Shown here: positions 3,833 through 60,510 of the stretch, in pieces
Layout: every line of letters begins with the position of its first letter
Position numbering within the stretch: the first letter of the stretch is position 1
Assembly (NCBI RefSeq): GCF_009827055.1
Contig: NZ_WUMK01000001.1
Span: forward strand, 372,001-436,000
DNA: 64,000 bases
Reading direction: 5' to 3'
Source of the DNA: Shinella kummerowiae
Lineage (GTDB): Bacteria; Pseudomonadota; Alphaproteobacteria; Rhizobiales; Rhizobiaceae
The notes under the pieces: generated by a model
Told to the model about the DNA's origin: nothing
Databases searched by the model: none
Seen by the model: only the letters and a program-made list of their open reading frames with translations
Made by a program: the position numbers and the translations under genes

Positions 3833-4717
3833 GTGAGCGAAATCCGCCTCTATATCTCCACGACCGAGAAGCGCGCCGAGATCGCGCTTTCGCTGATGAG
3901 CGACGCCTTTGAAGACGAAGGCTACGCCATCGCGACGATGGAGATCGACGAGAAAAACGATATCTGGGAAGCCTCCGTCTACATGTTCCGCGAGGACGAG
4001 GCGGCGATCCACGATCGCTTCGCCGCCCTGCTCGCGGGCGATTTTCCCGAGGCGGTGATCCAGCGCGAGGTGCTGCCGGATATCGACTGGATCGCCAAGT
4101 CGCTGGAGGGGTTGAAGCCCGTGCGGGCCGGCCGTTTCATCGTGCATGGCTCGCATGACCGCGGCACCGCCCGCCCCGGTGAAATCGCCATAGAGATCGA
4201 CGCCGGGCAGGCTTTCGGTACCGGCCATCACGGCACGACGGCGGGCTGCCTGGAGGTGATCTTCAACGTGATGCGGTCACGCAGAGTCAAGCGCGTGCTT
4301 GACCTTGGGACAGGCAGCGGCGTGCTGGCGATCGCCGCGCGCAAACTCGCGCCTGTCCGCGTTCTCGCGACAGATATCGACCCGATTGCCACCCGTGTCG
4401 CGCGCGAGAATGTGCGTATCAACGGCATTGCCTCCGGCGTCACGCTGGAAACCGCACCCGGTTTCCATTCCACCGCCTTCCGCCGCCACGGCCCGTTCGA
4501 CCTCATCATCGCCAACATCCTCGCCCGCCCACTAATGCGCATGGCGCCGCAGCTTGCCGCCCAGCTCGCGCCGGGTGGCGGCGATGTCATCCTGTCGGGT
4601 ATCCTCGCCTCGCAGCGCTGGAAGGTGTTGGCCGCCTATAACGGCGCGGGCCTGCGCCACGTGAGCACCATCTGGCGCAACGGCTGGGTGACGATCCACC
4701 TCGACAACAGACGATAA
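3833..4717 (+). CDS. prmA: Ribosomal protein L11 methyltransferase
   Basis: PrmA trimethylates ribosomal protein L11 with S-adenosylmethionine. The 294 residues match the family length. An N-terminal substrate-recognition domain (about 1-110) is followed by the signature GTGHHGTT (129-136), SAM motif I LDLGTGSG (156-163), the acidic loop TDIDP, and the catalytic-pocket motif NIL (228-230). Translation starts at GTG 3833, with AGGA about ten bases upstream. A 16-bp palindrome lies five bases after the stop codon. Confidence 0.95.
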   Translation: MSEIRLYISTTEKRAEIALSLMSDAFEDEGYAIATMEIDEKNDIWEASVYMFREDEAAIHDRFAALLAGDFPEAVIQREVLPDIDWIAKSLEGLKPVRAGRFIVHGSHDRGTARPGEIAIEIDAGQAFGTGHHGTTAGCLEVIFNVMRSRRVKRVLDLGTGSGVLAIAARKLAPVRVLATDIDPIATRVARENVRINGIASGVTLETAPGFHSTAFRRHGPFDLIIANILARPLMRMAPQLAAQLAPGGGDVILSGILASQRWKVLAAYNGAGLRHVSTIWRNGWVTIHLDNRR

Positions 4718-4722
4718 GAACA

Positions 4723-4758
4723 GCATTTCAGCGGGATGCTCACATCCCGCTGAAATGC
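4723..4758. repeat. Perfect 16-bp palindrome after prmA
   Basis: GCATTTCAGCGGGATG (4723-4738) is exactly complementary to 4743-4758, with a CTCA loop. It starts five bases after the prmA stop. There is no T tract on the plus strand, so it is either a rho-independent-like 3' stabilising hairpin for prmA mRNA or one copy of a dispersed intergenic palindrome. I saw no second copy in this window. Confidence 0.7.
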
Positions 4759-4777
4759 ATCAGAAAAACAGGCAAAA

Positions 4778-4980
4778 TAAAAAGGCGGTGCCAGAGGCAC
4801 CGCCTATAGTCGGCAAGCCGACCTGCCCGCGAGCTTGAGGAGGAGGAGCGCTCGAGCGGGCCTATGTGTTCCGAGCGCCTTCCCGGAGGAGGGAGGAGGA
4901 GTGACCGGCAAGACGCCTGATCGGAACACCTAGCTGTTTGCGACACGAAGGACTGGAGGAACTTTCACTTCGTTTCGCTT
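4778..4980 (-). ncRNA. Small RNA with three anti-Shine-Dalgarno hairpin loops
   Basis: Read on the minus strand, this gap between prmA and the next gene folds into a series of hairpins. Hairpin 1: 4968-4978 pairs with 4940-4950 (one mismatch) and its loop has TTCCTCC. Hairpin 2: 4921-4929 pairs with 4866-4874, extended inward by 4905-4908/4883-4886, and its loop is packed with CTCCTCC repeats. Hairpin 3: 4856-4861 pairs with 4825-4830 and the loop has CTCCTCCTC. A small hairpin (4809-4822) and an intrinsic terminator follow. Unpaired CCUCC loops can bind mRNA ribosome sites. The layout resembles the rhizobial alpha-r14/NfeR1 small RNA family as I remember it; this was not tested. The 5' end is estimated and I found no convincing promoter. 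Confidence 0.72.
4779..4804 (-). terminator. Intrinsic terminator of the small RNA
   Basis: GGCGGTGCC (4784-4792) pairs perfectly with GGCACCGCC (4796-4804) around an AGA loop. On the minus strand the stem is followed directly by TTTTTATTTT. It can only serve a minus-strand transcript, which is the main evidence that this gap is transcribed leftward. Confidence 0.85.
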
Positions 4981-5015
4981 GAAGCGCGTTTTACGTTCGC
5001 TTCGTTGGCGCCGCT

Positions 5016-5021: not shown

Positions 5022-5125
5022 CGATTCCGAAATTCGAGAAAGCCCCCTGGGCACATGGGTGCCATGCGCAAGGCGCATAAGTCCAATCCCAGACCTCTTG
5101 AACCCCTTCCCGAGACGACTTGACC

Positions 5126-5650
5126 ATGGCCGCGACCATCATCCCTCTCATCGCCTTAGCCGTCATCGTCTTCGTGCTCTGGACGGCCATTCGCGCCACG
5201 ATCGCGTCAGGCAAGCCACCGCCTCACAGCGACAACACGACACGCTCGCTGGAAGAGCGCCACCGCGTCGCCCTTTCGCTGCGTGACCGGCTGAGCCGCA
5301 AGCCGCTTGGTACGCTGCTTGCCGAAGGCGTCTGGCGCAAGCTGCTCAACGAGGTCCCCGGCAAAGGTGTGATCTACGACCATCACCGGGATTTCTGCGG
5401 CCAGGGACTTATCCGCACCGAAAACGGTGTGATGCTCGCGGACGTGCAGGACGGTGGCCTCTATTTCGGCCCGCCGATCGCCGAATGGTCGACCGAAACG
5501 GATTTCGTCGCCTTCCTCGCCCGCCAGTCCGATTTTTCGATGAGCGGCTGGGAGGCGGCGGAGCCCTTCTTCTTCAGCGAGGACGACTGGCACCGCAACA
5601 ATCAGCGCCTTACCCGCGCCGTGCTGGAACGCTATCTCTCCCGCCTTTGA
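5126..5650 (+). CDS. Conserved-looking membrane-anchored protein of unknown function
   Basis: A protein of 174 residues with one N-terminal membrane helix (MAATIIPLIALAVIVFVLW), then a soluble part that most likely lies in the cytoplasm or periplasm as a single globular domain. It contains LLNEVPGKGVIYDHHRDFCG and a W/F-rich end (FFFSEDDWHRNNQRL). I do not recognise the family. The ATG at 5126 is chosen over a TTG at 5120. It is followed 60 nt later by aminopeptidase P on the same strand, so the two may be co-transcribed, which does not reveal a role. Confidence 0.7.
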   Translation: MAATIIPLIALAVIVFVLWTAIRATIASGKPPPHSDNTTRSLEERHRVALSLRDRLSRKPLGTLLAEGVWRKLLNEVPGKGVIYDHHRDFCGQGLIRTENGVMLADVQDGGLYFGPPIAEWSTETDFVAFLARQSDFSMSGWEAAEPFFFSEDDWHRNNQRLTRAVLERYLSRL

Positions 5651-44178: not shown

Positions 44179-44208
44179 AAAAAATCGTCTTCCGGAGAGA
44201 GATTTTTT
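44179..44208 (-). terminator. Terminator of rnpB
   Basis: AAAAAATC (44179-44186) pairs with GATTTTTT (44201-44208) around a GTCTTCCGGAGAGA loop that itself can pair. On the minus strand the hairpin ends in a T run directly after the RNase P RNA, separating it from the dcw genes. Confidence 0.6.
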
Positions 44209-44607
44209 GCCAGTTGGCCTGTAAGCCGGGTTCTGTATGGCCCCGGTTTGCACCGGAACGTGGCAGCCATTCATCTGGGACCGGACTTGCGCCCGGCCTC
44301 TTGCAACCCACCCGGATGACCGGCCCGGAAACGGGCTGAAACGCTTGCGCGTTTCGCGTCATCCCTATTCGGTTTTGCTCCCGGTGGGGTTTACCTTGCC
44401 AGCCCTGTTGCCAAGACCGCGGTGGGCTCTTACCCCACCCTTTCACCCTTACCTTCCAAGGAAGGCGGTTTGCTTTCTGTGGCACTTTCCCTGGGGTCGC
44501 CCCCGCCGGACGTTATCCGGCACCGTGTTTCCGTGGAGCCCGGACTTTCCTCACCTTGCGGCCTTTCGACCCTTGCAAAGCGCGGCTGCCCGGCCAACTG
44601 GCAGGCG
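44207..44607 (-). ncRNA. rnpB: RNase P RNA (class A)
   Basis: The catalytic RNA that trims tRNA 5' ends. On the minus strand the conserved P4/CR-I region reads GAGGAAAGTCCGGGCTCC (about 44540-44558), and the 3' region reads ACAGAACCCGGCTTACAGGCC, ending in a P1 partner AACTGG. The 5' and 3' ends pair (CCAGTTGGCC with GGCCAACTGG). The length of about 400 nt fits bacterial class A. The 5' end is estimated. A promoter should lie in or next to the end of the following gene; none is obvious. Confidence 0.92.
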
Positions 44608-60046: not shown

Positions 60047-60328
60047 AAAGAATCGGGAACAAAATGCCTATCCGGTCGTTTCAAGACGATACGCCGTATT
60101 GCGGCGCCGACATTTCGCCACATTGGTAAATGCACACTGTCGGCATTCGTCATTCGGTAGGGATTGTGAATTTTTTGTGGCGTGCACAATAGCATAGGAA
60201 ATTCAGTAGATTAGCACTGTGAATAACCATCCGGCAAAGACCGGATGTTGCAATGCAGCAACAAAATGCCTTTCCAACCCGCTTTTTTCGGTCGTAATAT
60301 CCGACCGTCAACGCAAGGAGGTAAGCCG
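60047..60328. other. Intergenic region upstream of the 25-residue microprotein
   Basis: About 280 bases, AT-richer than its surroundings. A six-base inverted repeat TGTTGC/GCAACA (about 60247-60264) is visible. The microprotein promoter must be here. No gene was found. Confidence 0.4.
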
Positions 60329-60406
60329 ATGGGACTCACACATTCCTTGAATGTTCTGATGATCAGTGCAGCATTCCTCTTCGTCGCAACGATGATTTTC
60401 ATCTAA
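60329..60406 (+). CDS. 25-residue single-pass membrane microprotein
   Basis: Reads MGLTHSLNVLMISAAFLFVA followed by TMIFI: almost wholly hydrophobic, one membrane helix. It has AAGGAGG seven bases before ATG, a near-perfect Shine-Dalgarno, and a terminator 70 bases later, so it is a well-formed small gene. Too short for usual gene callers. Similar microproteins exist in other rhizobia as far as I recall, function unknown. It may stabilise a membrane complex or sense stress. Confidence 0.7.
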   Translation: MGLTHSLNVLMISAAFLFVATMIFI

Positions 60407-60475
60407 AGGCGACCTAAGCGAAGCAGAGAGAGGCAAGGGACAAGATCAAGAAACCCTGCCGAAGCTCATTATAAG

Positions 60476-60510
60476 AATGCATGGCCCCGGAGACGGCGCC
60501 ATGCATTTTT
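60476..60510. terminator. Intrinsic terminator between the microprotein and metF
   Basis: AATGCATGGC (60476-60485) pairs perfectly with GCCATGCATT (60498-60507), followed by TTTC on the plus strand. It lies about 28 bases from the metF stop on the opposite strand and may serve both. Confidence 0.75.

Follow-up and report, generated by a model that had tools for sequence, protein, structure and literature searches.

The intergenic region between pepP and prmA of Shinella kummerowiae carries on its minus strand what is, by sequence comparison, a conserved RNA gene. Its product is probably (about 0.7) a stand-alone, trans-acting, cuckoo-like RNA that is activated by LsrB, has been orphaned from an mRNA and blocks ribosome-binding sites. 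The gene was studied within a stretch of 64,000 nucleotides (the window), whose own coordinates are used throughout.

An RNA gene between pepP and prmA

From about position 5007 to 4776 on the minus strand, the window folds into hairpins with CUCCUCC-rich loops, followed by a small hairpin and a terminator. A putative promoter precedes them, with an LsrB/VtlR-like box (TATGCGCCTTGCGCATGGCACCCATGTG, 5079–5052) and, 48 nt from its GCAT, a –10 element (TATAAG, 5019–5014) that is kept in the Shinella alignment. Transcription probably starts near 5007, as judged from the position of TATAAG; a promoter scan of the locus found no sigma-70-type promoter or –35 element for the RNA. The leader (5007–4936), which contains a weak UUCCUCC hairpin (patch at 4961–4955), matches the 5′ UTR ahead of a small ORF in the related genome G031. 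Hairpin 1 (4933–4862) has an 18-nt loop, UCACUCCUCCUCCCUCCU, at 4904–4887, and the loop of hairpin 2 (4861–4825) contains CUCCUCCUCCUC at about 4849–4835; fold, covariation and loop conservation support both. The small hairpin (4823–4808) is recognized by its fold and by double changes in all six of its pairs. The intrinsic terminator (4805–4783) and its U tract, with the RNA ending near 4776, are supported by fold, covariation and a terminator scan that detected it on the minus strand only. The RNA would thus be about 230 nt long, or about 155 nt in a processed form.

The fold is more stable than expected by chance, with z scores of –5.49 for 166 nt and –6.10 for 232 nt; in neither case did any of 200 shuffles equal it. 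The motif CTCCTCCTCC occurs three times in the window, always on the minus strand, against 0.14 occurrences expected, and the two loops account for two of these. The S. kummerowiae genome has a single copy of the gene; a second copy was rejected, since the next best match reaches only E 0.059. Every feature listed in an initial annotation of this DNA (hairpins with UUCCUCC and CUCCUCC loops, a small hairpin and a terminator usable only leftward) is present in the sequence. Its count of three hairpins stands for two strong ones, but the UUCCUCC hairpin is weak and falls outside the structure conserved between genera. Likewise, its span of 4778–4980 covers the RNA body, but the gene with its promoter box extends to about 5079, because the start probably lies near 5007 and the box is upstream of it. 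The PrmA protein encoded next to the RNA shares 91% identity with its S. zoogloeoides counterpart. Between prmA and the RNA terminator lies a perfect 16-pair palindrome (4723–4758) with no strong T run on either side, possibly an end signal of prmA.

Conservation as an RNA across Rhizobiaceae

DNA searches matched 25 of the 101 genomes searched, including all 20 other genomes of the genus in that set. A covariance model built from 24 loci matched 57 of 297 Rhizobiaceae genomes and 23 of 109 genera, and two of the 57 (G338 and G277) have only a weak match away from the pepP–prmA slot. Among 80 named prmA loci the model matched 41, mostly near the end of prmA, and gave no match in the Mesorhizobium, Bartonella, Phyllobacterium and Aureimonas loci of that set. 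Three loci outside the slot (L126, L127 and L128; 24.8–27.9 bits) were later removed, as were reverse-strand matches (28 bits or less), which match the terminator palindrome. At 71 of 74 loci (73 genomes), pepP and/or prmA is found on the expected side and strand, and both are at 61; the three loci with neither gene in its expected place are the weakest matches to the model. One RNA-bearing locus, L160, has a Rhizobiaceae-like prmA and comes from a metagenome bin titled Arenimonas, which is possibly misbinned.

The alignment of 86 distinct sequences supports the structure. Standard pairs fill 96.2% of pair cells and double changes occur in 42 of 49 pairs, counts that lean towards the structure, since the model itself guided the alignment; none of 500 shuffles reached as high a value, and structures slid along the alignment dropped to 35–44%. 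The stems covary and the CUCCUCC patches are kept, and a result named in the initial annotation as fatal to its claim, unconserved stems with freely varying patches, was not what the alignment gave. In each of loops 1 and 2, UCCUCC is kept in 85 of the 86 sequences, against 13.9 and 4.6 expected after shuffling the letters of the respective loops. The exact motif CCUCCUCCC is found in loop 1 of 70 sequences, in loop 2 of 15 and in both loops of 12. The window has it in loop 1 only, with CUCCUCCUCCUC in loop 2 and UUCCUCC in the leader patch. Among these orthologues of one locus, the mean majority share is 0.86 and 0.85 for the two loops, 0.52 and 0.72 for the stem of hairpin 1 and 0.90 for the base of hairpin 2. 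Free variation of the stem thus holds for hairpin 1 only; in hairpin 2, stem and loop are conserved to a similar degree.

An LsrB/VtlR-like promoter box

A near-palindromic box, TATGCGCCTTGCGCATGGCACCCATG, lies within 5079–5052, upstream of TATAAG. The box of LsrB/VtlR is given as GCAT-N3-TG-N3-T in the consulted excerpts of two papers (PMC8844928, PMC7486931); the window box reads GCAT-GGC-AC-CCA-T, with AC in place of the published TG. For NfeR1, an excerpt places LsrB binding at –72 to –57 (PMC10746234), and the position of the window box would match that site if transcription starts near 5007. A box matrix was made from eight promoters of the S. kummerowiae genome (three abcR, three ar14 and two DUF1127 genes), chosen by eye from 14 loci after the window box had been seen. 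With training sites so chosen, the window box ranks first of 127,944 positions scanned, and its opposite-strand reading third.

The box was also sought across homologous loci, merged where identical from 112 to 101. A site scoring at least 8 occurs within 400 nt upstream of the RNA at 93 of the 101 distinct loci, against 4 of 101 control stretches downstream and 0 of 100 far upstream. A TATA-like element was detected at 78 of those 93 loci, 48–49 nt from the box in 70 of the 78. A LysR-family gene (PF00126, PF03466) immediately precedes the abcR pair in the S. kummerowiae genome, the place that lsrB occupies in S. meliloti according to a passage of PMC8844928. Together, these observations suggest that LsrB/VtlR activates the promoter of the RNA.

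Proposed mode of action

The proposed mechanism has three steps. LsrB/VtlR would activate the promoter at 5079–5014, as the box suggests; the stems, known from comparison, would hold the CUCCUCC-rich loops open; and the loops would pair with purine-rich ribosome-binding sites, so that translation of several mRNAs is blocked. The last step draws on the anatomy of the RNA and on published work on NfeR1, which silences mRNAs of transport proteins through redundant anti-Shine-Dalgarno (anti-SD) motifs, as the available parts of PMC7143759 and PMC8844928 describe. The conserved stems and CUCCUCC patches support the leftward, structured RNA with unpaired anti-SD loops proposed in the initial annotation, so the locus is best read as coding for a trans-acting regulator of several mRNAs. 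In the S. kummerowiae genome, GGAGGAG stands 4–10 nt before ATG at 200 sites, against 29 for the reversed pattern.

One such site, picked by eye among the GGAGGAG sites listed, is the ribosome-binding site of an ABC permease gene (GGAGGAGTGACC; L234, near 1501), where 13 nt are complementary to loop 1. Of 21 Shinella genomes, 13 contain the site pattern, and the 12 loci examined represent one ABC permease in 11 cases and another gene in one. The protein reaches the cut-off of no NCBIfam permease model. In eight other genomes whose loop has the same GGUCACUCCUCC and in the Shinella genome G016, the longest match was 6–9 nt, with start codons placed automatically and off in some cases. The 13-nt match is not kept in other genera, so the permease site gives no evidence of targeting and stands only as a weak candidate.

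The C-rich loops could instead bind a protein, as a sponge, or the ribosome itself, with no pairing to mRNA. Such a role has a parallel in the DUF1127 protein CcaF1, which binds RNA and matures the CcsR RNAs according to a passage of PMC10253847. However, NfeR1, with the same kind of loop, silences mRNAs through its anti-SD motifs in the accounts cited above, and the loops mirror purine-rich ribosome-binding sites, of the kind counted above at 200 sites. Binding without mRNA pairing is accordingly an improbable explanation, and blocking of ribosome-binding sites is preferred.

Relation to known RNA families

The window RNA shares several traits with the ar14/NfeR1 family (Rfam RF02344), which the initial annotation had named for its similar unpaired motifs: anti-SD loops, a row of hairpins with a final terminator and a similar promoter box at a similar distance. 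Both are stand-alone RNAs with an LsrB-type box upstream; among the ar14 copies of the S. kummerowiae genome, three of four have such a box, as judged by eye. In three homologues (L117, L122 and L123), the terminator loop carries a third UCCUCCUCCC, so that these RNAs, like ar14, have three anti-SD loops and come nearer to its form. The match to ar14 is full-length but weak: a search of 401 bases gave 16.3 bits with an E value of 0.7, whereas the gathering score is 58.8. The covariance search called for by the initial annotation thus left the locus below the cut-off, and membership was rejected. The suhB/mmgR family also matches at chance level (19.3 bits, cut-off 41). Neither the window locus nor any of 16 homologous loci matches a family of Rfam 15 at its gathering score; across the whole window, only the class A RNase P RNA (44206–44601, minus strand) and the Rhizobiales sRNA Atu_C9 (60306–60509, plus strand) do so. 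Four true ar14 copies score above the cut-off elsewhere in the genome. Members of ar14/NfeR1 have three hairpins, each with an identical unpaired CCUCCUCCC; the window RNA has this motif in loop 1 alone, and differs in sequence and size. That it is itself an ar14/NfeR1 RNA is thus very unlikely, though the two may share a distant ancestor.

The window RNA also resembles the cuckoo RNAs (SmelA075/SmelA099/RS0680a type), described in parts of two papers as two to four hairpins in a row with an anti-SD loop motif (PMC3927594, PMC4504443). It has two strong adjacent anti-SD hairpins, and a weak third in Shinella. Unlike in that family, CCUCCUCCC is not in every loop, and the stem of hairpin 2 is conserved. 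The RNA is therefore called cuckoo-like and not a strict cuckoo member, because CCUCCUCCC is in loop 1 only. AbcR1/AbcR2 (alpha-r15, Rfam RF02345) resemble it in their LsrB-type box and anti-SD motifs, but differ in structure and locus: four copies are above the cut-off in the S. kummerowiae genome, and ar15 gave no match at the window locus up to E 10. The family described here is widespread and absent from Rfam 15, and anti-SD RNAs as a kind are already known. The papers searched, as judged from titles and passages, yielded nothing on the locus or on the series of ORF losses described below; the 2015 cuckoo survey may include the locus.

The arrangement would also fit local action in cis, through antisense or a divergent promoter, on the gene at 5126 or on prmA: both are neighbours, the RNA ends only a short way from the prmA 3′ end, and the RNA promoter lies between the RNA and the gene at 5126. 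Such a role is nevertheless highly improbable. Transcription is directed away from the gene at 5126, and the inferred 5′ end at 5007 stops about 115 nt short of it, which argues against the antisense control envisaged for this gene in the initial annotation; prmA is not entered (its stop is at 4717, the RNA end near 4776). At only 10 of 74 loci does a relative of the gene at 5126 adjoin the RNA, and the conserved loops hold nothing specific to either neighbour.

Proposed origin from a small-protein mRNA

In some relatives, the RNA is preceded by an ORF of about 57 codons for a DUF1127-like protein, and in G031 the stretches matching the leader and the RNA are separated by an ORF of about 50 codons. 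At 112 RNA loci, which include second records of some genomes, the upstream match to an ORF profile was strong at 18, weak at 21 and missing at 73; the 24 Shinella loci, window included, gave no match. The ORF of the relatives matches neither PF06568 nor any NCBIfam model, so it was rejected as a plain DUF1127 protein. A single profile–profile comparison with four DUF1127 proteins of the S. kummerowiae genome gave 92.2% and E 5.8e-7 over 31 columns. It is called only DUF1127-like because Pfam and NCBIfam do not bear out DUF1127.

The two elements occur in every combination among 78 loci (the named loci plus the window, with L135, L160 and L175 excluded for a short flank or a broken prmA). The ORF occurs without the RNA at 11, including Hoeflea, Nitratireductor, Oricola, Zhengella, Chelativorans, Aliihoeflea and some Mesorhizobium, and as a weak match without the RNA at one more. 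ORF and RNA stand together at 24 (8 strong and 16 weak ORF matches), and the RNA stands without the ORF at 17 (Shinella, Sinorhizobium, Ensifer, Pararhizobium and Gellertiella). Neither is found at 25, among them Agrobacterium tumefaciens MEJ076, most Mesorhizobium loci, Bartonella and Aureimonas. On a PrmA tree, all 41 RNA-bearing loci fall inside one starred group of 45. Presence of the ORF changes at least four times among the RNA-bearing loci of this tree and eight times on a wider tree of 105 loci (9 of 115 dropped for too little prmA, plus L129, a second record of an included genome), but these trees come from quick searches with a single protein and leave many forks open, and the counts cannot separate gain from loss. 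Since outgroups have the ORF only and the leader is shared, loss is the simpler direction, which the trees alone cannot show, and we infer that the ORF was lost, not gained, in Shinella. The comparison suggests that the window RNA descends from the 3′ UTR of an mRNA for a DUF1127-like small protein, with the ORF gone and the promoter, leader and RNA kept.

A known arrangement offers a parallel. In Rhodobacter sphaeroides, the DUF1127 gene ccaF1 carries CcsR1–4 in its 3′ UTR, and pairs of DUF1127 and CcsR-type genes, named CIN1, are frequent in alphaproteobacteria, according to passages of PMC8625941 and PMC10253847. In the ORF-bearing relatives, likewise, a message for a short DUF1127-type protein ends in anti-SD hairpins. 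The Shinella locus differs in having no ORF, and that of the relatives is below the reach of the Pfam DUF1127 model; the promoter in R. sphaeroides is RpoHI/RpoHII-dependent in the passages of PMC10253847, whereas an LsrB-like box is found here. A short DUF1127 ORF directly upstream in the transcript, the mark of CIN1, is thus missing from the window locus and partly present in the relatives, and the window gene resembles a CIN1-type locus minus its ORF. Several other loci join the two elements. A weak model match outside the slot (L128, near 1457) lies beside a canonical-looking DUF1127 ORF and is probably another CIN1-type locus. In G000, contig C33 (45177–46429) has two DUF1127 genes with two ar14 copies a short way upstream of them, and contig C5 (36779–37261) has one ar14 downstream of a DUF1127 gene; most of these loci (L035–L037, L210–L212) have LsrB-type boxes.

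Tentatively, and at somewhat less than even odds, the pepP–prmA slot can be read as a natural series from mRNA to regulatory RNA, which includes a third anti-SD patch recruited in Shinella from the dead ORF. The series would run from the ORF alone (Hoeflea, Nitratireductor and some Mesorhizobium) to the ORF with one anti-SD hairpin (Peteryoungia), then to the ORF with two (Neorhizobium, G031) and a diverged ORF with two (the R. leguminosarum group). It would end, through several separate losses, in the RNA alone (Sinorhizobium, Shinella and others). The ORF of G031 starts with ATGTCCTCC (ATG TCC TCC), and the aligned Shinella bases are GTTCCTCC, in the weak hairpin of the leader; in L025 and L026 they are CTCCTCCTCCC, in a better hairpin. 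TCCTCC is present at the leader patch in 18 of 21 Shinella loci and absent in L019, L027 and L028. This one alignment suggests that codons turned into a loop motif: the first codons of the dead ORF would have been recruited as the third patch, and in two species this patch may have developed into a full CUCCUCCUCCC hairpin. That the leader still encodes a small peptide, making the RNA the 3′ UTR of a working mRNA, could be argued from its conservation and from a 12-codon GTG-to-TAG frame in the window at the former ORF start, but it is hardly credible given that the GTG is missing in L016, L044 and L045, that the frame varies in length, that AAAGGA before the start in G031 has become AAACGA in most Shinella and that no Shinella locus matches the ORF profile.

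Significance

Research has mostly treated small RNAs transcribed from promoters of their own separately from those cut out of mRNA tails. The survival of a 3′-UTR RNA beyond its mRNA is directly testable at this locus, because it shows both forms and the intermediate steps under one conserved promoter box. The series from mRNA to RNA is of more interest than the RNA itself. It raises the questions of whether the RNA or the protein is the function that was kept, and of whether the RNA can mature without its partner protein, which would be CcaF1-like if the likeness holds. If the proposed reading is true, the LsrB/VtlR circuit would gain a widespread RNA family that is absent from Rfam 15.
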